The notes beneath the pieces are model-generated. The model was given only the letters and a program-made list of their open reading frames with translations, did no database searches and had not been told where the DNA came from. The position numbers and the translations under genes are program-made. Below, in pieces: positions 5,677 to 58,567 of a stretch of 64,000 nucleotides of DNA (position 1 is its first letter; every line of letters begins with the position of its first letter). The stretch is from Sandaracinobacteroides hominis. GTDB lineage: Bacteria > Pseudomonadota > Alphaproteobacteria > Sphingomonadales > Sphingomonadaceae. The DNA lies in NCBI RefSeq assembly GCF_016464365.1, contig NZ_JADCUC010000006.1, forward strand, positions 124,001 through 188,000. Direction: 5' to 3'.

Positions 5677-6402
5677 ATGCGGTGCGCGGTACTTGACGAT
5701 GACAAGGCGCAGACGGAGCTTGTAGCCAAGCTGCTGGCTGATGCCGGCCATCAATGCGAGGTGTTCCACCAGGGGCGCAGCCTGATCAACAGGCTGCGGC
5801 AGGATACGTTCGACCTCCTCGTCATCGACTGGAACATGCCCGGCATGTCCGGCATCGAAGTGCTGGAAAATGTCCGTCAGGGCCAGCATGCCACCCTGCC
5901 AATCCTGATGATCACCAGCCGCTCCGACGACGAGGATGTGGTGATGGGTCTGGCCGCGGGTGCCGACGATTATATCGTGAAGCCGCTCAACACGACCATC
6001 TTCATGGCCCGCGTAGAGGCAGCTCTGCGCCGCGCCCAGCTCAACAAGCCGCAGAAGTCCACCGCTTCCTATGGCGCCTATACCTTCGACGTGCCGACCG
6101 AAACCGCGACAGTCCATGGCGAGACGGTGAAGCTGACTGCCAAGGAAATGGCGCTGGCGATGATGCTGTTCGAGAACATGTCGCGGCCGTTGTCCCGCAG
6201 CTATCTGCTGGAGAGCATCTGGGGCCAGAGCCCCGAGGCCGAGACGCGCACGCTCGACGCCCATGTGTCGCGCATTCGCTCCAAGCTGAACCTTCGGGCT
6301 GAAAACGGCTTCCGCGTGCTCCCGGTCTATTCCTACGGCTATCGTCTCGAACCCACCAACGCGCAGTCGTCCGACGGCGGCGCGGACGAGATGGCCGCCT
6401 AG
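5677..6402 (+). CDS. OmpR/PhoB-family response regulator
   Basis: 241 residues with a receiver domain (residues 2-117) and a winged-helix trans_reg_C domain (about 135-228). The acidic pocket Asp7-Asp9, phosphoacceptor Asp51 in VIDWNMPG, Thr80 and Lys102 in IVKPL are all present. The effector domain shows the expected LTAKEMALAMMLFENM, SRSYLLESIWG and RTLDAHVSRIRSKL helices. An in-frame stop at 5650 excludes a longer start. Its start is poorly served by a ribosome site. It lies 5 bases ahead of the FecR-like gene and two genes ahead of a CHASE2 histidine kinase, its probable phosphodonor. Confidence 0.93.
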   Translation: MRCAVLDDDKAQTELVAKLLADAGHQCEVFHQGRSLINRLRQDTFDLLVIDWNMPGMSGIEVLENVRQGQHATLPILMITSRSDDEDVVMGLAAGADDYIVKPLNTTIFMARVEAALRRAQLNKPQKSTASYGAYTFDVPTETATVHGETVKLTAKEMALAMMLFENMSRPLSRSYLLESIWGQSPEAETRTLDAHVSRIRSKLNLRAENGFRVLPVYSYGYRLEPTNAQSSDGGADEMAA

Positions 6403-6407
6403 CCGCC

Positions 6408-8183
6408 ATGCGCTTCGCTGGTCCCACCCTGCTGCTGTTGCTGGCCGCAACTGCACCGGCGCTCCCCAACGGGGCGCGTCTGGAGCAGCGTCAACGTGCG
6501 CAGGCGGAAGCGACCGACGAAATCATCATCTACAAGACCAAGCCCGGCGACACGCTGCAGTCGCTGGCGGGCAAATGGTTTGAACGGCCGGAAGACTGGC
6601 GGCGGGCACAAGCGCTCAACAAGCTGAAGGACCCGTCCGACATTCCGGCGGGCACGGCCCTTCGCCTGCGCAGCGTCTGGCTGAAGACCAATCCCATCGC
6701 CGCCGAACTGGCTGCCTTCCGCGGCGACGTGCGCGTGGTGCGCGGCAAGGCCGGTCAGCCGGTGGCCAAGGGCATGGCGCTAGCCGAAGGCGACATCATC
6801 GAGACCGGCGCCAACGGCTATGCCACACTGACGCTGCCGGACAACAGCCAGGTTTCGCTGCCGTCGGCCAGCCGCATCCGCCTTGCGCGCCTGCGCCAGG
6901 TGCCGATGTCCGATTCGATCGATCGGCGCTTCACCTTGGAGCAGGGGCGTTCCGAGGCGAAGGTCACGCCGATGTCCAATCCGGCATCGCGCTTCCTGAT
7001 CAGCACGCCGGTGGCGGTGGCCGCCGTCCGCGGCACGCAATTCAAGGTGACCTACACCCCGGAAGAGCTGAAGGCGGCAACCGTCGTCACCGAAGGCAAG
7101 GTCGCCGTTTCCCGCATCGGCGGCATCGAGGAAGTTCTGGTGCGCGCCGACTATGGCAACATCACCACCTCCAAAGGCGCTTCCAAGGCGTTCGCGCTTC
7201 TGCCGGCGCCCGCCGTCGAAACGCCCGAACGGCTGCAGGACGCCAAGGCCGTTACCTTCCGGCTGAAGCCCGTGAACGGGGCAGTGAAGTATCTCGTCGA
7301 GATCGCCGCCGACGCCGGCTTCGTCGACCGAGTCGGCAGCGTGGAGACCACGGACACGCTCGCCGTATTCGATGGCGTGCCCAACGGCGACTATCATGTC
7401 CGCGCCTTTGCCATCGACAACCTTGGGCTCACGGGCCGGCCGGTCGAATATGCGTTCACGCGCAGCTATGATGGACCGACGGCCGATGCAGATGGCAATG
7501 GCAAGAACGACAAGGCCGAGGAAATCGCGCGCCTGGGTGAAGAAATGCAGCCCGAATTCAACTGGTTCGAGGGCGAATCCGGCGATCTGCTGCTGGCGGT
7601 ATCTGACGGTGGCGGTGGCGGCTTCGGCGCCGACCCGATTGTTCCGGGCGCTGACGTCGGCCTGATCCCTATCGAAGAGGCTGCTCAAGATCCTGTTGCC
7701 GGACTTCCCGAGGTCAGCCAGCCTGAAAGCGGCGGCTTCCTCGGTGGCGCGGGCGGTAGCGGCGGCGGCGGTGCTGGCGGTAGCGGCGGCGGCCGTGGTG
7801 GCGGTGCTGGCGGCGGCGGTGCTGGCGGCGGCGGTGCTGGCGGCGGCGGTGCTGGCGGTGGCGGTGCTGGCGGTGGTGGTCAGGGTGGCAGCGGTCCCTC
7901 CGATCCCGATGGCCCGGTAGTCCTGCCACCGGTCGATCCCGTTCCGCCCGGCGGAAGCGATGGCGGCCCGCAGATCATTCCTGTCGATCCCGATCCCCCT
8001 ACCGGCCTTCCCGGCGACGGTGGGCAGGGGCCCGTGAACGGCGGCCCCGACGAAACCCCGACCAATCCGCCCTTCGTTCCCGGAAGCACCATTCCCGAAC
8101 CGGCTGTCTGGGGCATGCTGATTTCCGGCTTCGGGCTGGTCGGTCTTGCCCTGCGCCGTCGGCGCACGATCGCCCGCGCCTGA
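6408..8183 (+). CDS. LysM/FecR-domain exported protein with PEP-type sorting tail
   Basis: 591 residues. A signal peptide (about residues 1-20) is followed by a LysM domain near residues 43-85 (IYKTKPGDTLQSLAGKWF ... IPAGTALRLR), a FecR domain near 100-235 (GDVRVVRGKAGQPV, LPDNSQVSLPSASRIRL, TPVAVAAVRGTQFKVTY) and a fibronectin-like region near 270-350 (KAVTFRLKPVNGAVKYLVEI, GDYHVRAFAIDNLGLTG). A flexible Gly-rich stretch with tandem GGGGA units (about 446-493) and Pro/Asp-rich linker lead to the C-terminal IPEPAVWGMLISGFG then RRRR, a PEP-type sorting signal. It probably lies in the envelope and senses or binds peptidoglycan. FecR proteins classically pass signals to sigma regulators, but here the partner is a two-component pair. 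Confidence 0.87.
   Translation: MRFAGPTLLLLLAATAPALPNGARLEQRQRAQAEATDEIIIYKTKPGDTLQSLAGKWFERPEDWRRAQALNKLKDPSDIPAGTALRLRSVWLKTNPIAAELAAFRGDVRVVRGKAGQPVAKGMALAEGDIIETGANGYATLTLPDNSQVSLPSASRIRLARLRQVPMSDSIDRRFTLEQGRSEAKVTPMSNPASRFLISTPVAVAAVRGTQFKVTYTPEELKAATVVTEGKVAVSRIGGIEEVLVRADYGNITTSKGASKAFALLPAPAVETPERLQDAKAVTFRLKPVNGAVKYLVEIAADAGFVDRVGSVETTDTLAVFDGVPNGDYHVRAFAIDNLGLTGRPVEYAFTRSYDGPTADADGNGKNDKAEEIARLGEEMQPEFNWFEGESGDLLLAVSDGGGGGFGADPIVPGADVGLIPIEEAAQDPVAGLPEVSQPESGGFLGGAGGSGGGGAGGSGGGRGGGAGGGGAGGGGAGGGGAGGGGAGGGGQGGSGPSDPDGPVVLPPVDPVPPGGSDGGPQIIPVDPDPPTGLPGDGGQGPVNGGPDETPTNPPFVPGSTIPEPAVWGMLISGFGLVGLALRRRRTIARA
7746..7886 (+). repeat. In-frame Gly-Ala tandem repeat coding tract
   Basis: The DNA repeats a 15-base unit built from GGCGGCGGTGCTGGC with small variations, giving GGGGA protein repeats. 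It encodes the flexible linker of the FecR-like protein. Length should be prone to slippage and stays in frame whenever whole units are gained or lost. Confidence 0.85.
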
Positions 8184-13650: not shown

Positions 13651-13738
13651 CGCGACGTCTCGCGCCATTGACCGAATCGGGCGGTTGCTCCAAGGCCGGA
13701 CAAGTCGGCGGAAGCCCTGTTCCGGGGCAACCGGCGAC

Positions 13739-13955
13739 GCTGCGGGAGAGTGCGATGCGGGCAACTGCAAAGCCGCCGAAGGAGCAACCGCCCCCGGAAT
13801 CTCTCAGGCCAAAGGACCGCAGCGTCGCTTCGTGTTGAAACGGCAGTCTGGAAAGCGCCCCGGTTCGGGTTTCACCCGGTTTCGCGGCCACCGAAGGGGT
13901 AAGCTGCGACCGTAAAGGTTGCCGTGAAAGCTCTCAGGTCTCGTGACAGGCGGGG
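13739..13955 (+). promoter_or_regulatory. Tandem glycine riboswitch controlling the gcv operon
   Basis: Two aptamers lie in a row. Aptamer 1 (about 13739-13822) runs from GCGGGAGAG through GCCGCCGAAGGAGCAA and CTCTCAGGCCAAAGGACCGC; aptamer 2 (about 13845-13955) has the matching TCTGGAAAGC, CCACCGAAGGGGTAAGC and AAAGCTCTCAGGTCTCGTGACAG blocks. The conserved CCGAAGG(A/G)G and CTCTCAGG elements in both copies are diagnostic. The RNA lies directly upstream of gcvT; family precedent is activation by glycine. A downstream expression-platform hairpin is not clear, but the ribosome site GAGG (13990) is close enough for translational control. Confidence 0.93.
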
Positions 13956-14000
13956 GCGGGCAGGCAGTATATCGCTGCCTTGCAGTCACGAGGTGCGTCC

Positions 14001-41652: not shown

Positions 41653-42507
41653 CTACCCCCGGCCGGACACTCCGAAGGTCCAGCCCTCCGTTCGCGCAAT
41701 CGCGTCCATCATCCCCACCGGGCGCCACCATTTCGGCTCGCCCGCCATCCGCCGCAGCGCCGCCGCCGACAGCAGCGCATCGGTCTGGTGGTCATTCAGC
41801 CCCTCATCGCACACGCCCTTGCTCCCGAATGCCGCCAGCGCCACATTCAGCCCCGCCGCATCGCGCAGCTTCAACCCGCGCCCACCGGCATGGCGCAGCA
41901 TCGCCCGGGTATAGATTTCCACCACCGTCCGCTCGCCCGGCGGATCGAACGGCCACACCGCAAAGCTCCCCCGCAACCGATGCAGCAACCGCATCCCGGC
42001 AAAGCTCGCCTTGGCAACCTGCGCCGCCCCAACGCAATCGAACAGGGTAGAGGCCTTGCCGCCGCCCCCCGCATTGAAGACGCCCTCGCAAACCCGGAAA
42101 TGCAGGAAATCCGCTTTCGCCCCGTCCGCCGCCCCCATCCAGAAATGCGCGCGGCCGGCGCCCGCCATGAAATCCCCGGCGCCAAGATCTGCGTCCGCGC
42201 ACTGCACATCCAGCCAGGCCCAGAATTCAGGCCCGCTCTCGGGTGTCTCCATCCCCGGCAGATAGGCGCCACGGTCCAGAAAAGGCGGCGCAAAGGAAAA
42301 GTCGAATCCGGCCAATACCGTGCCCGGCAACGCCTCCAGCCAATCCGCAATCTCTGCCCGCGCCCAGCCGGCGGGGGAGGGCGGCGGCACCAGCCGGGGC
42401 GCGTCCACGCCCCGGCCGGCAACCGCCATGGCTATCCCCCGATGCCGGGCACCCTTCGCGCCCGACCAGTCGATCGCGACGAAATGCTCGAACTCAGGCA
42501 GTCGCAC
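41653..42507 (-). CDS. RNase-H-like DUF429-type protein
   Basis: 284 residues from a GTG at 42507, whose codon overlaps the end of the upstream metalloprotease gene in another frame; a longer version from 42552 is possible. The N-terminal FVAIDWSGAKGARH and the FDFSFAPPFL strand with acidic residues resemble the RNase-H/actin-like DUF429 group. Central GKASTLFDCVGAAQVAKASF and C-terminal CDEGLNDHQTDALLSAAALR fit the same group. Function unknown. Confidence 0.6.
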   Translation of the reverse strand: MRLPEFEHFVAIDWSGAKGARHRGIAMAVAGRGVDAPRLVPPPSPAGWARAEIADWLEALPGTVLAGFDFSFAPPFLDRGAYLPGMETPESGPEFWAWLDVQCADADLGAGDFMAGAGRAHFWMGAADGAKADFLHFRVCEGVFNAGGGGKASTLFDCVGAAQVAKASFAGMRLLHRLRGSFAVWPFDPPGERTVVEIYTRAMLRHAGGRGLKLRDAAGLNVALAAFGSKGVCDEGLNDHQTDALLSAAALRRMAGEPKWWRPVGMMDAIARTEGWTFGVSGRG

Positions 42508-43603
42508 GCGATCGACGGCGGGCCATGCAGCCCACCAACCCGAAGCCGGCAATCAGCATCGCCCAGCTCTTCGGCTCCGGCACCACGCCGAACATCAGCC
42601 GCGTATCGGCGCTGAAATCCGGGTTCGCCAGCACGTCGAACTTCAGGTTCCACCCCAGCGCATCGAACGCCGCCAGATCCAGCGAATTGACCCGGCCCAT
42701 CTCGCCCCGGCGGGAAGTCGGGTCCATCATCCCCAAGCCCTCCTTCCAGTGCGAGGCCTGCTGCCCGTCGCCCCAGTTCACGCCGGTCGAAAAGGCGCCA
42801 CCCAACAACGCCGTTGCCCCGCCGTCGATCGAGAAGAAGGGAGCGCCGCCCATCGACCAGTCCAGCCCCAGTTCGCTATAGCGGAACAGATCCATTCCGT
42901 GCCCGATCCAGTCATAGTTCCAGTTATAGCCATAGGAAGGCGCAAAGGCGTCGTAATAGTCGACACCTGAAGTAAAGCCCATGATGTGGCCGAGTTCGTG
43001 GAAGGCGGTGAAGGTGAAATCATAGAAACCGCCCGAAATGCCGTCTGTCGGATCGAAATCGAAATTCAGATCGGAATTGAAATTGATCGAGCCGTCCTTT
43101 AAGCCGTCGACATAGACCAGCCCCAGCGCCTTCCCCTGCGCCCAGGTCACGCCATAGCGCTGGTTGTTCCAGCTGCCATCGTTATCCCAGATGCGCGAGA
43201 ACGGATCTGCCCCGGTCTGGTTGACGGCATCGGTATAGCCCGGCTTCCACATGCCGATGGAGCCGCCGCTGGCATCCGGCAGATGCGCGATGGCGGTTGC
43301 ATCCAGCGCCGAGTTCCCGACGGCGCCCATCGCGCCGACGATCACGCCCACATTGTCGACATGGTAGTAATTGCTGGTGCCGCCGATCGGCCCGTTCACG
43401 CCCTGCCCGTAAAAGCTCACGTCGATGCGCAGCGTGGTGTCGGTCGTCACCAACGATTCCCAGAAGTCCGCGGCCTTTCGAAAACTGTTGTAGGCGGCAG
43501 TATCGCCGGCCAGCCCGCCCTGGTCCAACAGGTCGATCTTCAGCGCCGAAGCAGGCGCGGAAATCGCCGAAACCAACAGCGCGGCAGCAAGTGCAATTCG
43601 CAT
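42494..43603 (-). CDS. NF038122-type metalloprotease with PEP sorting tail
   Basis: 369 residues from the ATG at 43603, with GGGGGTC eight bases upstream. A signal peptide (residues 1-20, cut near ASA) is followed by a zinc metalloprotease domain with FHELGHIMGFTSGVDYYD (HExxHxxGF) near residue 180 and a DLAAFDALGWN end typical of this secreted family. The tail VPEPKSWAMLIAGFG then ARRRSR is a PEP-type sorting signal. The product is expected on the cell surface or outer membrane after processing. No exosortase is present in the window. Confidence 0.87.
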   Translation of the reverse strand: MRIALAAALLVSAISAPASALKIDLLDQGGLAGDTAAYNSFRKAADFWESLVTTDTTLRIDVSFYGQGVNGPIGGTSNYYHVDNVGVIVGAMGAVGNSALDATAIAHLPDASGGSIGMWKPGYTDAVNQTGADPFSRIWDNDGSWNNQRYGVTWAQGKALGLVYVDGLKDGSINFNSDLNFDFDPTDGISGGFYDFTFTAFHELGHIMGFTSGVDYYDAFAPSYGYNWNYDWIGHGMDLFRYSELGLDWSMGGAPFFSIDGGATALLGGAFSTGVNWGDGQQASHWKEGLGMMDPTSRRGEMGRVNSLDLAAFDALGWNLKFDVLANPDFSADTRLMFGVVPEPKSWAMLIAGFGLVGCMARRRSRATA

Positions 43604-43845
43604 AAACAAGACCCCCATAGATTCCGCCGAACCCCTTCGGCGTTGCCGGATGCTTCGCGCATGCAGCACACAAGTCAATATCCATCCGCCATCCGGGAAC
43701 ATCGGCCGCGCCCATCCGTTGGCAGCCAGGGGCCGCACGTAGCGACGAGCGCTAAGGCAAACGTGCGGCTTCTCCCTTCAGCCAGGCTTTCGGCGCCCTC
43801 CGTTCCCATGCCTCCCGCAACAGCGCAGCTTGCCTTCAACGTGAT

Positions 43846-45438: not shown

Positions 45439-46440
45439 CTACTTCCGCGCCCGGCTGACCACCGATTCCGGCAGATCCTCGCCAAACACCCGCTGGTAAT
45501 ATTCCGCCACGATCCCCCGCTCCGCTTCGTCGCAGCGGTTCAGGAAGCTCGCGCGGAAAGCAAAGCCGACATTCTTGAAGATGTCGGCATTCTGCGCCCA
45601 GGTGATCACCGTCCGCGGGCTCATCACCGTAGAGATGTCTCCGGCGATGAAGCCCTGCCGGGTCATGTCCGCCACCTTCACCATGTTGGCGACGGTCTTC
45701 GGGTCAGCTCCGGGCACCTTGGCGGAAACGATGTTCGTCTCCGTCTCGGCCGGCAGATAGTTCAGGGTTACCACCACGTTCCAGCGGTCCATCTGGCCCT
45801 GGTTGATCTGCTGCGTGCCGTGATACAGGCCCGACGTGTCGCCCAGACCGACCGTGTTGGCGGTCGCAAACAGACGGAACCAGGGGTTGGGCCGGATCAC
45901 CCGGTTCTGGTCCAGCAGCGTCAGCTTGCCTTCCACTTCCAGCACGCGCTGGATCACGAACATCACATCCGGTCGGCCGGCGTCATATTCGTCGAACACG
46001 AGCGCGGTGGGGGTCTGCAGCGCCCAGGGCAGCAGCCCCTCGCGGAACTCCGTCACCTGCTTGCCATCGCGCAGCACGATCGCATCCTTGCCCACCAGGT
46101 CGATGCGGCTGATGTGGCTGTCCAGGTTGATGCGGATGCACGGCCAGTTCAGCCGCGCCGCCACCTGCTCGATGTGGGTCGATTTGCCAGTGCCGTGATA
46201 ACCCTGGATCATCACCCGCCGGTTGAAGGCAAAGCCGGCCAGGATCGCCAGCGTCGTGTCTGGATCGAACACATAGGTCGGATCAAGGTCCGGCACCCGC
46301 TCGTCGGCGACGCTGAACGCCGGCACCTGCATGTCGATATCCACGCCGAACACCTCGCGGGCATCGACGAAGGTATCGGGCGCAGCCATCTTCGTGGGCG
46401 CGTGGCGTTCCGTATCGGCGGCAAGGTTCAGCGAGCTCAT
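45439..46440 (-). CDS. cobS: Cobaltochelatase CobS subunit (AAA+ ATPase)
   Basis: 333 residues from the ATG at 46440. Walker A is [15 protein letters not shown], Walker [14 protein letters not shown] and sensor 1 [18 protein letters not shown], all typical of CobS. With CobT it forms the ATP-driven module that helps CobN insert cobalt into hydrogenobyrinate diamide. CobT is encoded about 10 kb away at 56723-58567, and no cobN or other cobalamin genes lie here. Located 37 bases upstream of the rarA start on the same strand. Confidence 0.93.
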
Positions 46441-46583
46441 GCCTTGTCCGTTGCCCCCGGGGGGCCGAAATCGCAAGTGGATTGATGCGCCGCCAGCCTC
46501 CCGGTTGCGGCAGGTTTGCCGCAGCTTTCTGTTCCGCAAGTGCGAAATCTGTCGTATATATCCAAGAGCGCGTTGCCAGTTTG

Positions 46584-46598
46584 TGGCACAGTTCTTGC
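46584..46598 (+). promoter_or_regulatory. Candidate sigma-54 (-24/-12) promoter
   Basis: TGGCACAGTTCTTGC matches the RpoN consensus TGGCAC-N5-TTGC exactly at both boxes. It points toward the autotransporter gene, with a predicted start near 46610 and a leader of about 190 bases. Use requires sigma-54 and an enhancer-binding activator, neither of which is in this window. Confidence 0.6.
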
Positions 46599-46615
46599 GT
46601 CAGTATGGTGTTGGG

Positions 46616-46680
46616 AACGGGGGAGAGCCCCGTTTGCCGAACGGTCGGCGAAAAGAGCCTGCGGGAGGGTTGCACCCCTG
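46616..46680 (+). promoter_or_regulatory. Structured leader of the autotransporter mRNA
   Basis: Three hairpins follow one another: AACGGGG-GAGAG-CCCCGTT (46616-46634), GCCGA-ACGG-TCGGC (46636-46649) and a GC-rich one near 46660-46680. They lie just after the predicted sigma-54 start. The rest of the 358-base intergenic region (46441-46798) shows no gene. No known riboswitch family was recognised. Confidence 0.45.
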
Positions 46681-46798
46681 CGCCAGCGCCGCCCGTTCAG
46701 GCTGATCGGTTTGCGTTGAGTGAAGGGCATCCGGCCGGTCGTCCACAGGGGGCGCCCGTCCGCTCGTGTGCATTTTCAGAATGACAAGAGGGGTTAAC

Positions 46799-49700
46799 AT
46801 GAACAAGCTTCGCATCACGGCGGCATCGCTCGCCATGGCTACGGCACTCGCTTTTGCCGGCCAGGCTTCCGCCAACACGCTCTATTTCCAGATGAACCCG
46901 AACTATTCGGGCGGCGGCCAACGACAGCTGTTCGTGTTCGGCCCGGCCAATTCCACCGGTACCGTCACCAATCCGGGTGGCTTCAGCGAGGCGTTCGATC
47001 TCGGCGCCGAAGGCTTCGCCACCATAACCCTGCCGAACGCCGATGAACTCGATCCCGATACCGTCCAAGACCTCGGCTACAAGGTCACCTCTTCCGCAGC
47101 GGTCAGCGGCTATTTCCTCAGCCGCCAGACCGCCACCACCGACATGACCTACCTGATCGACGGTGAACGCCTGGGTACCAAATATGTCGTCGCCGGCTAC
47201 CAGAATATCTACCCCGACCAGATGTCGGTGCAGGCGACTCAGGACAACACCACCGTCACCTTCAAGCCAAAGGGCGGCGCCGAGTTCAACGTCACGCTGA
47301 ACGCCGGCCAGACCTATATGTATGATGCCTCGCTGCAGCTGACCGGCAGCATGATCGACTCAGACAAGCCGATTGCGGTCTTCTCGGGCAACCAGTGCAC
47401 GAACGTCCCCACTGGTGTCGGCGCCTGCGATCACATCGTCGAGCAGATGCCGTCGGTCGATCAGCTCTCCACCACCTATCTTGTCGCGCAGACGCCCCGC
47501 ACAGGCACGCTCGGCAACGTCATGCGCATCGTCGCCACCGAAGATGCAACCGACGTGAAGCTGAACGGCACCACCGTTGCCACGCTGAATGCCGGCGAAT
47601 TCTACGAAGGTCGCGTTTCCGGCGGGCTGCAGGTCGATGCCTCTAAGAAGGTGCTGGTGGCCCAGTATCTGATCGGCCAGGGCCAGGCCAATGCCAACAC
47701 CGACCCGGCGATGACCATCGTCCCCGGCGCCGACCAGTGGCTTTCCAGCTATGTCTTCGCAACGCCCTCGGGCGTCGCCGATTTCCCGACCGACTTCGTC
47801 AGCATCATCATCGAGACCTCCTCGCTTCCAACGCTGACGATCGACGGCACGGTCGCCGATGCCACGCTCTTCAACGCGCTCGGCTCCACCATCTACAGCT
47901 ATGGCAACATCGACGTGTCAGGCACGACCGGCCCGTTCACGATTTCGGCAGAAACCAAGTTCCAGCTGCTGCTTTCGGGCTTCGACAGCTATGACAGCTA
48001 CTTCACCTTCGGTGGCGCCGCCTTCGCGCCGGGAGCCTCGCCCGATCCGGAAACCCCGCCTCCACCGCCGCCTTCCCCCACCACCGATGTCTATTGGGAT
48101 GGCGACGGGCTCGGACGCACCTTCAATGGCACGGTCGACGGCGGCGACGGCATTCTCACCAGGAACAGCCCCAACCTCACCGTCGACAACGGCGTCACCA
48201 ACAACAGCCTGCCGCTGGAGCCGGCCAACGTGATCTTCTCGGTCACGCCCGGCACGGTCACTATCGACGACGTCGATGGCCCGATCTCGGCCGCCGGCGC
48301 CCGCTTCCTCGTAAGCGGCTATGTGATCAACGGGGATTCCGTCGCCATGGTGGGCGATGCACCCACCCTGCAAGTCGGCACCGACGACGATGCGACCGCC
48401 GGCTTCATCGCCACCGTCAACAACGTCCTTACCGGTGAAGATGGCCTCACTAAGTCAGGCAAGGGCACCCTCTATCTGAACGGCGTCAACACCTATTCCG
48501 GCGGCACCACGGTTTCCGCCGGCACGCTGGTCGGCAACACCACCAGCTTTGGCACCGGCGCCATCGCCAACAACGCCACGCTGGTGTTCGATCAGGCAAC
48601 CGACGCCAGCTTCGGCGCCGGCATCAACGGCAGCGGCGTCCTGATGAAACAAGGAGCGGGGCGGCTGACGATCGAGGGCACCAACGGCCTCACCGGAGGC
48701 ACCTGGGTCAATGCAGGCGGCCTGCACGTCACCGGCACGCTTGCCAGCTCCATCGTCACCGTCGCGTCTGGCGCCCGCCTGTCGGGCACCGGCACGGTTG
48801 GCGGCGTTGTCCTGCAATCGGGCGGCATGGTGCTTCCCGGCGCCTCCATCGGCACGCTGGAAGTCGCCGGCAACTACGAACAGGCAGCCGGCTCGGTCTA
48901 TGAGGTGGAACTGAACTCGCTCGGCCAGTCCGACCTCATCCACGCCACCGGAACGGCCACGCTGGCGGCCGGCTCCAGCGTCAACGTCGTGAAGCTGGAT
49001 AGCCCCCGCTATGTGCTCGGCACCCGCTATACGATCCTGTCGGCAGATGGCGGGCTCACCGGCACCTATACCACGATCACCGGCGCCACCGGGGTCTCGG
49101 CCTTCATCGGCCTGACTGCCTCCTATGACGCCACCAACGCCTATCTGAACGTTGCGCGTACCCGCAGCTTTGCATCGGCGGGTAACACGGTGAACCAGAT
49201 CCATGCGGCGAGCGGCGCCGACAACGCCGGCAACGGCGCCATGTACACGGCAATCGCCTATCTGCCCGACAACGCCAGCGCCCAATATGCGTTCGATCAG
49301 GTCTCCGGCGAAATCCACGCGTCGCTGCGCGGTGCCACGCTGGAAGACAGCCGCTTCATCCGCGAAGCCATGATCAACCGTACCGTGGGCTCGCCGACGC
49401 CGGGCAAGGGCCTGTTCTTCCACGCCTATGGAAGCTGGGGCACCTTCGACGGCGACGGCAACGCAGCGGATGTAAAGCGCGATATCGGCGGCTTCTTCAT
49501 CGGCGGCGAAATGGTGAACGACAGCGGCCTCATCCTCGGCGCATTGGCGGGCTATGGCGAAGCCAAGATCAAGGTGTCGGACCGCAACTCCAAGGCCGAC
49601 ACCGCCGATACCCAGCTCGGCGGCTATGTCGGCTTCAACGCGCTCGGGTTCACCATGCGCGGCGGCCTCGCCTATATGTGGCGCGATGTGAAGACGGTGC

Positions 49701-50224
49701 GCACGCCGGGCTTCACCGGCTTCTCGGACACCCTCACCGCCAAGTACAACAGCAACCTGTTCCAGCTGTTCGGTGATGCCGGCTACAAGATTCAGGCCGG
49801 CGGCATCGGGCTGGAGCCCTTCTTCCAGCTCGCCTATATCAAGCTGGAGGGCGGCGACTTCAGCGAGCGCGGCGGAAGCGCTGCTCTTCAGGGTCTCGGC
49901 GCCAATTCCACCAACTATTGGCTCACCCAGCTGGGCAGCCGCTTCAACGTCGGCTTCGGCAGCGGCGGCCTCGGCCTCTCCGGTTCGCTCGGCTGGCGCC
50001 ACCTCGCCGGCGGAGACAAGAGCACCCCGGTTTCGCTCGGCTTCGCCTCCGGCCCCGCGTTCGACATCTATGGCGCCCCGATCGCCAAGGACGTCGCCGC
50101 CATGAGCCTGGCGCTGACAGGCAAGATCGGCACCAACATCGACATCGACGTCGGCTACAGCGGCCAGGCAGGCAACGGCGCCTCGGATCACGGCATCCGC
50201 GCGGCTGTAGCTTTCCGCTTCTAG
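46799..50224 (+). CDS. Autotransporter adhesin with IgGFc-binding-like passenger
   Basis: 1141 residues from the ATG at 46799, behind AGAGGGG. A signal peptide (cut after ASA, about residue 24) is followed by an IgGFc-binding-like beta domain (about 60-400): VSGYFLSRQTATTDMTYLID, AVFSGNQCTNVPTGVGACDH, YLVAQTPRTGTLGNVMRIVA. A Pro-rich linker (about 410-425) leads to a passenger stalk with autotransporter-associated repeats (LTKSGKGTLYLNGVNTYSGG) and a C-terminal beta-barrel (about 870-1141) ending AVAFRF. The barrel should insert in the outer membrane and display the passenger. A hairpin terminator follows. Confidence 0.88.
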   Translation: MNKLRITAASLAMATALAFAGQASANTLYFQMNPNYSGGGQRQLFVFGPANSTGTVTNPGGFSEAFDLGAEGFATITLPNADELDPDTVQDLGYKVTSSAAVSGYFLSRQTATTDMTYLIDGERLGTKYVVAGYQNIYPDQMSVQATQDNTTVTFKPKGGAEFNVTLNAGQTYMYDASLQLTGSMIDSDKPIAVFSGNQCTNVPTGVGACDHIVEQMPSVDQLSTTYLVAQTPRTGTLGNVMRIVATEDATDVKLNGTTVATLNAGEFYEGRVSGGLQVDASKKVLVAQYLIGQGQANANTDPAMTIVPGADQWLSSYVFATPSGVADFPTDFVSIIIETSSLPTLTIDGTVADATLFNALGSTIYSYGNIDVSGTTGPFTISAETKFQLLLSGFDSYDSYFTFGGAAFAPGASPDPETPPPPPPSPTTDVYWDGDGLGRTFNGTVDGGDGILTRNSPNLTVDNGVTNNSLPLEPANVIFSVTPGTVTIDDVDGPISAAGARFLVSGYVINGDSVAMVGDAPTLQVGTDDDATAGFIATVNNVLTGEDGLTKSGKGTLYLNGVNTYSGGTTVSAGTLVGNTTSFGTGAIANNATLVFDQATDASFGAGINGSGVLMKQGAGRLTIEGTNGLTGGTWVNAGGLHVTGTLASSIVTVASGARLSGTGTVGGVVLQSGGMVLPGASIGTLEVAGNYEQAAGSVYEVELNSLGQSDLIHATGTATLAAGSSVNVVKLDSPRYVLGTRYTILSADGGLTGTYTTITGATGVSAFIGLTASYDATNAYLNVARTRSFASAGNTVNQIHAASGADNAGNGAMYTAIAYLPDNASAQYAFDQVSGEIHASLRGATLEDSRFIREAMINRTVGSPTPGKGLFFHAYGSWGTFDGDGNAADVKRDIGGFFIGGEMVNDSGLILGALAGYGEAKIKVSDRNSKADTADTQLGGYVGFNALGFTMRGGLAYMWRDVKTVRTPGFTGFSDTLTAKYNSNLFQLFGDAGYKIQAGGIGLEPFFQLAYIKLEGGDFSERGGSAALQGLGANSTNYWLTQLGSRFNVGFGSGGLGLSGSLGWRHLAGGDKSTPVSLGFASGPAFDIYGAPIAKDVAAMSLALTGKIGTNIDIDVGYSGQAGNGASDHGIRAAVAFRF

Positions 50225-56722: not shown

Positions 56723-58567
56723 ATGCCCGAACCTGATCGTCTCGAGGATTTCCGCCAGGCCCTTGTCGCCGGCATGCGCGCGCTCGGCAGGCGCCCGGAA
56801 TTCGAGCTCAGCTACACCGCAGACCGCCCGGCCTGCCACGGCGATCAGGCCCGCGTTCCCCAGCCCTCGCGCAGCCTCACCCCCGAACAGGCGGCCGAAG
56901 CCCGCGGCTGGGCAGACAGTTTCGCGCTGCGCCGCCGTCTGCACGATCCGCGCGCCCACGCCGCCGTCCATGTCGGCCCCGGACTGCCGCGCGAAATGCT
57001 GAACGCCGCCGAACAGGCCCGCGTGGAGGCGATCGGCGGCCGCGACATGGCCGGCGTCGCCCTCAACCTGCAGCGCATGCTCGACACGCGCATGAAATCG
57101 GATGCCATCGCCCGTGCCCGCACCCCGGATGAAGTGCCGCTGGCAACCGCCATGGGCCTTATCGTCCGCCAGCGCCTCACCGGCCAGCCCATCCCCGACA
57201 GCGCGGCGGGCGGCGTCTCCATGGTCCGCGAACGCATGGAGGAAGCAGCCGCCGGCCACCTCGACGCGCTGGCCAATGCGCAGGACGATCAGGCCGCCTT
57301 CGCCGAAGCCTTCGTCCGCGTCCTCCACGATCTCGGCCTCGCCGACGATCCGGACTCCCCCTCCGAAGACGAACAATCCGACGAGGCCGAGGAAAACGAA
57401 GACGAATCCCAGGGCGACGAGGAAGGCGACGACGACGCCCAATCCGCCCAGGCGCAGCAGTCGGTCGAAACCCGCTCCGAGGAACAGGAAGGCGGCGAGT
57501 CCGAAGGCGAGGCACAGGAAATGGAGATGGAGGGGGAAACCACCTCCGACGCGGAACTTGGCGACGAAGGCGAAGACGGCATGATGCCGTGGCGCCCGAA
57601 CCTGCCCGACAGCAAGCTGCCGCCCGACTTCTCCTACAAGCCGTGGACGACCGAATTCGACGAAGTCGTCACCGCAGAAGATCTCTGCGAAGCCGAGGAA
57701 CTCACGCGGCTGCGCGGCTATCTCGATCAGCAGCTCGTCACCCTGCAAGGAGCAGTCACCAAGCTCGCCAACCGCCTGCAACGGCGGTTGATGGCGCAGC
57801 AGAACCGCAGCTGGGATTTCGACCAGGAGGAGGGCATCCTCGATCCCGCCCGCCTCACCCGCGTCGTCGTGCAGCCCGACCATGCGCTTTCCTACAAGAT
57901 CGAGCGCGACACCGATTTCCGCGACACCGTCGTCACGCTGCTGATCGACAACTCGGGCTCCATGCGCGGCCGCCCGATCTCCATCGCCGCAATCTCCGCC
58001 GACATCCTCGCCCGCACGCTGGAGCGCTGCGCCGTGAAGACTGAAATCCTCGGCTTCACCACCCGAGCCTGGAAGGGTGGCCAGAGCCGTGAAAAATGGC
58101 TGGCGCAGGGCCGTCCCGCCAAGCCCGGACGCCTCAACGATCTGCGCCACATCATCTACAAGCAGGCCGACGCCCCCTGGCGCCGCGCCCGCCGCAATCT
58201 GGGCCTGATGATGCGCGAGGGGCTGCTGAAGGAAAATATCGATGGCGAAGCCCTGCTCTGGGCGCACAACCGCCTGATCGCCCGTCCCGAAGACCGCCGC
58301 ATCCTGATGGTCATCTCCGACGGCGCCCCGGTCGACGACAGCACGCTTTCGGTCAACAGCGGCAATTATCTGGAGCGCCACCTGCGGCAGGTCATCAGCT
58401 GGATCGAAACCAAAAGCCCGGTCGAACTCATCGCCATCGGCATCGGCCACGATGTCACCCGCTACTACCAGCGCGCTGTCACCATCATGGATGCCGAGCA
58501 GCTCGGCGGAGCTATCGTCGACCAGCTCGCCGCGCTGTTCGACGAGGACAAGAAGGGCGGCCGCTAA
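56723..58567 (+). CDS. cobT: Cobaltochelatase CobT subunit
   Basis: 614 residues, typical CobT length. An N-terminal helical domain (about 1-205) with [20 protein letters not shown], a long Asp/Glu-rich linker (about 208-280), and a C-terminal CobT/VWA domain (about 395-610) with the MIDAS motif [10 protein letters not shown] around residue 409. CobT is the partner of CobS in cobaltochelatase. The stop TAA overlaps the convergent epoxide hydrolase stop (shared CTAA). Its separation from cobS, and the absence of cobN here, leaves cobalamin synthesis unproved. Confidence 0.93.

Follow-up and report, generated by a model that had tools for sequence, protein, structure and literature searches.

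An IgGFc_binding module on a predicted type Va autotransporter of Sandaracinobacteroides hominis, preceded by a probable chance match to the sigma-54 core

Results

Gene and domain layout

The window (the whole 64,000-nt stretch of S. hominis DNA analyzed here) carries an open reading frame for a protein of 1141 amino acids at 46799-50224 on the forward strand, as the first-pass annotation had claimed; its upstream neighbor is cobS, on the opposite strand. That annotation had also described the protein as an IgGFc-binding-like N-terminal domain joined to an autotransporter stalk and barrel, and had suggested a profile search of the passenger. Pfam upholds this description. Behind a signal peptide identified by eye and similar in the orthologues (residues ~1-26, MNKLRITAASLAMATALAFAGQASAN, 46799-46876) lies the IgGFc_binding module (residues 27-415, 46877-48045). 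Its Pfam core, PF17517, spans residues 116-393 (E 1.5e-62, 211.9 bits against a cut-off of 25.6) and covers positions 2-296 of the 297 in the profile, which makes the protein a member of the family. Within the module C174, CDHI-x-EQM at 184-191, R217 and DP at 276-277 (module numbering) are invariant. A proline-rich joint (48046-48087) leads into a stalk of PATR repeats of the beta-helix type (48088-49200; Pfam PATR, E 5.7e-13; TIGR02601), and the protein ends in an autotransporter beta-barrel with a final F (residues 873-1141, 49415-50221; PF03797 at residues 873-1121, E 4.5e-46, 158 bits, model positions 2-255 of 255; TIGR01414), so that NCBIfam agrees with Pfam on both stalk and barrel. Signal peptide, passenger stalk and C-terminal barrel together give the type Va layout, and by Pfam the barrel occupies the C-terminus with no PEP-CTERM tail. 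A recent foreign origin of the gene was rejected on composition, since its GC and GC3 match those of neighboring genes.

The AlphaFold2 model of the module is all beta with a pLDDT of 90.9. The model of the full 1141 residues is of low confidence (pLDDT 52.5), and we build no inference on it, although strands appear at the expected stalk and barrel positions. Comparison of the module with the PDB gave no usable match by profile or by fold (TM 0.10-0.16 in the fold comparison), and neither sequence nor fold search found a solved structure of the IgGFc_binding family. The single strong fold match of the module (46877-48088) was to a brown-algal virus (phaeovirus) protein, FirrV-1-C4 (Q6XLX4; probability 1.00, TM 0.58, 9% identity).

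Conservation of the fusion

The fusion of IgGFc_binding and autotransporter is kept in seven genomes, six of them additional sphingomonads: G002, G003, G241, G902, G833 (seemingly identical with L057) and G201 (seemingly L059), a MAG in which the architecture is the same and the reading frame is broken. Relatives that are 66-69% identical over the full length adjoin cobS in G002 and in G003, the latter assigned to the genus of the window genome, and we treat these two as syntenic orthologues. The domain occurs in only 11 of the 398 sampled genomes of the family, and the distribution of the gene is therefore patchy.

The same module on other anchors

A Zoogloea MAG, an assignment that hangs on one contig, encodes a module 60% identical to that of the window (L058, about 5874-7329), which continues into a PEP-CTERM tail (PF07589, above the Pfam cut-off). 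Tails that we call PEP-CTERM-type by eye, unscored, also follow the module in G106 (VPEPTTWAMMIAGLALVGASMRRRK), in G010 and G190 (VPAPGAIG/IPAPGAIG variants) and in G042 (VSEPASLVLLGAGLIG...RRRK). In all five the module ends in FxPGxSP and then a mostly proline-rich segment, and it is here that the stalk of the window protein starts. Among more distant members, 28-41% identical in the module, a T9SS tail is clear in L069 and matched below the cut-off in L064; others are an RTX/cadherin-like protein (L061) and an RHS/cadherin/VWD protein (L060). By sequence, then, this is one predicted passenger with exchangeable anchors, common to proteins of autotransporter, PEP-CTERM, T9SS and RTX/cadherin type.

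In the module tree the autotransporter forms and the PEP-CTERM forms of G106 and Zoogloea fall in one clade (support 100/100), within which the seven autotransporter forms group with one label change and weak support (74/48). The stalk and barrel recur at 48-49% identity under a different N-terminal tip (NGSFETG...) in G016 and G008 (loci L005 and L006), and this is another tip exchange; a search for that tip in the PEP-CTERM proteins of the window genome gave no match. Our literature search, which mostly lay outside subscription literature, found no paper linking IgGFc-binding with PEP-CTERM, and one that mentions IgGFc-binding protein together with autotransporters, its subject being mouse gut mucus.

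The sigma-54-like sequence and the leader

The first-pass annotation had placed the gene under sigma-54 control of the nitrogen or flagellar type. The exact TGGCAC-N5-TTGC on which it relied is there, at 46584-46598 on the forward strand (TGGCACAGTTCTTGC, flanked by a G on both sides), 200 nt ahead of the ATG, and is the only copy in the window. Chance predicts 0.15 copies there, and 13 of 100 shuffled sequences contained one or more. We regard it as most likely a chance match that is probably not functional, and the autotransporter gene as probably read from another promoter, although a consensus scan ahead of the gene found none of the sigma-70 type.

The alternative is that sigma-54 RNA polymerase and an enhancer-binding protein other than PrsR act here, with a start near 46610 and a leader of about 190 nt. 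The core is exact, on the correct strand and suitably placed, and start distances in PEP-CTERM genes reach 221 nt on record (PMC1569441). Moreover, the genome has the machinery that the annotation had proposed looking for: rpoN is present and TIGR02915 matches seven sigma-54 activators. Exact cores number 15 in the genome as against 5 for the reversed control, and hence some of them must be real. Six are convincing, share the flanks TTGGCAC...TTGC[AT] and precede flgB, glnB, the gene of a sigma-54 activator (enhancer-binding protein) and three PEP-CTERM genes, as named from our reading of the translations. However, the window site departs from the consensus in its G...G flanks and an A after CAC, and the flanks are unlike those of these six. 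The site is also absent upstream of the orthologues and other fusions in G002, G003, G241 and L057, and none was seen by eye in G902. This comparison takes in two syntenic genomes plus three in other contexts, and turnover of promoters can occur. Nor was there an NtrC box upstream, the best candidate being no better than those elsewhere, or a PrsR box (see below); the boxes of these two activators were those looked for, and others may use sites that go unrecognized. The promoter surveys covered extracted genome stretches.

The leader (presumed, 46599-46798) points the same way. The three hairpins described by the first-pass annotation can be drawn, but the folding energy of -84.5 is ordinary against a shuffled mean of -78.9 (z -1.19; 22 of 200 shuffles were as good), Rfam offered no family match even at E 10, and identity to the two syntenic orthologues is 0.44-0.48 where shuffling gives a mean of 0.465, unlike cobS and the gene start, which are 67-90% identical in the same comparison. 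For these reasons the hairpins do not go beyond chance for DNA of 64% GC, and a riboswitch or other known leader RNA was rejected on the Rfam result. Covariation reported by RNAalifold across three leaders was discounted because their alignment is itself at chance identity. Nor did TGTCGGAAAWATACAA hold up as a common operator or -10 region. This element lies 168-184 nt before the orthologous genes of G002 and G003 (L204 at 1500; G002:C23:69789-69804), and related strings occur near the starts in G902 and G241; even its best window counterparts (at 46550 or 46609) match poorly, and the other matches of the element stand before unrelated genes. Against a real sigma-54 system and a correctly positioned exact core stand an unconserved site and a leader that resembles shuffled sequence; on balance we judge a functional site unlikely. 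With the site unconserved, its flanks weak, both boxes missing and the leader unconserved, control of the nitrogen or flagellar type is unsupported.

The PrsR/RpoN regulon

What the genome appears to have instead, as sigma-54 control of surface proteins, is a PrsR/PEP-CTERM circuit of the biofilm matrix, which the first-pass annotation had not taken into account. In the published arrangement a motif 1 ending in TTTACA stands 32-92 nt ahead of the -24/-12 site (Haft 2006, PMC1569441), and in Aquincola tertiaricarbonis a PEP-CTERM gene has been demonstrated to depend on RpoN for its transcription (PepA; PMC9850573). We used TGTCGG-N5-TTTACA as motif 1, the consensus being from this analysis and the 32-92 nt before motif 2 from PMC1569441. 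Of 200 family genomes, 52 contained the pattern, and the reversed control almost never matched. The window genome encodes PrsR (649 bits, cut-off 502.6) and about 42 PEP-CTERM genes, and appears to have such a regulon. One of these genes lies within the window (42497-43612, reverse strand) and encodes a PEPxxWA-CTERM protein of the NF038122 metalloprotease family.

A PrsR-box PWM was built from 16 such promoters, and it weighs the TTTACA letters heavily because the training sites were anchored on them. It gave 17-24 bits in five of six own-genome PEP-CTERM promoters, which had been chosen by their sigma-54 site and not by a PrsR box; the survey behind them used a simple start-codon rule, lost six genes for want of a regex match and put at least one start (L114) in the wrong place. 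The Zoogloea IgGFc-PEP-CTERM gene scored 23.0 and carries both a PrsR box and a -24/-12 site (TGTCGACAAAATTTACA and CTGGTACAAATTTTGCA). Sigma-54 control therefore fits the PEP-CTERM form of the module and not demonstrably the window gene, where the best score was -0.8 bits against a null median of 2.3 and motif 1 is thus lacking by PWM.

Two further readings connect the window gene with this regulon. According to the first, the module would have moved, within the sphingomonad/Zoogloea group, among at least three unrelated anchoring routes (exosortase/PEP-CTERM, type V autotransporter and T9SS) with a proline-rich joint as the fixed point of exchange, and since the move to the autotransporter would have removed it from the PrsR/sigma-54 matrix regulon, the window site would be a relic or a re-invention; as a whole we find this account distinctly improbable. 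According to the second, the window gene still belongs to the PrsR/RpoN matrix regulon, as the Zoogloea form may. The presence of PrsR and of many PEP-CTERM genes would suit that view, but the window promoter scores below the null median and the PEP-CTERM form of G106 likewise shows no clear site, and we consider membership very unlikely.

Discussion

Taken together, the results suggest as the likely gene product a classical (type Va) autotransporter with an exchanged IgGFc_binding tip, probably for matrix adhesion; the sigma-54-like sequence ahead of the gene is likely fortuitous, and transcription probably starts from another promoter. A beta-helix stalk would carry the module at its tip, an architecture that probably arose by domain exchange. 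The protein resembles known type Va autotransporters (PF03797, PF12951) in its signal peptide, beta-helix stalk and C-terminal barrel ending in F, and the stalk of the extracellular serine protease 8e7f is an example with PATR repeats; it differs from them in that the tip is an IgGFc_binding module and not a protease or known adhesin domain. From PEP-CTERM/exosortase matrix proteins under PrsR-RpoN control, with which it shares the module carried on PEP-CTERM-type tails in Zoogloea and some sphingomonads, it is set apart by having neither the tail nor the PrsR box.

The predicted protein, if exported and displayed at the surface as its layout suggests, is probably an adhesin or matrix protein. 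Its module would adhere to or cross-link extracellular matrix, glycans or mucus-like polymers in a biofilm, a role proposed from family and context, since the well-predicted module had no usable counterpart in the PDB comparison. Bacterial proteins sharing the N-terminal domain of FCGBP have already been noted in a review (PMC9354016). The window protein resembles that domain in its nearly full-length match to PF17517, far over the cut-off, and bacterial members of the family have a conserved C...CDHIVEQM core; unlike FCGBP, it is anchored by an autotransporter barrel and lacks VWD/TIL mucin repeats. Immunoglobulin capture is not the role that we propose: the idea that the passenger, like human FCGBP, binds the Fc of host immunoglobulin, in the service of immune evasion, is favored by the family name, the profile match and the location of IgG Fc binding in the N-terminal 450-aa region of FCGBP (PMC9354016), but it has very little to commend it given that the relatives named in our searches, among them records of Sandaracinobacter, Zoogloea, Richelia and Sulfurovum, are mostly of free-living kinds, that the module is only 28-41% identical to distant members, and that we came across no bacterial member reported to bind IgG.

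IgGFc_binding, a bacterial surface family that takes its name from a mucus protein, is widespread but a functional blank, and its fold is predicted here with high confidence though no solved family structure was found. The occurrence of the same tip on different anchors, an autotransporter here and PEP-CTERM in Zoogloea, offers a clean test of the role of the tip in aggregation and matrix building.

Two other features of the window may be recorded. The cobaltochelatase partners cobS (45439-46458, reverse strand) and cobT (56723-58567, forward strand) are separated by about 10 kb, which hold the autotransporter gene, a TPR/TonB-C protein gene and other genes. Tandem glycine riboswitch aptamers are found on the forward strand at 13733-13829 and 13838-13959 (60.9 and 42.4 bits).
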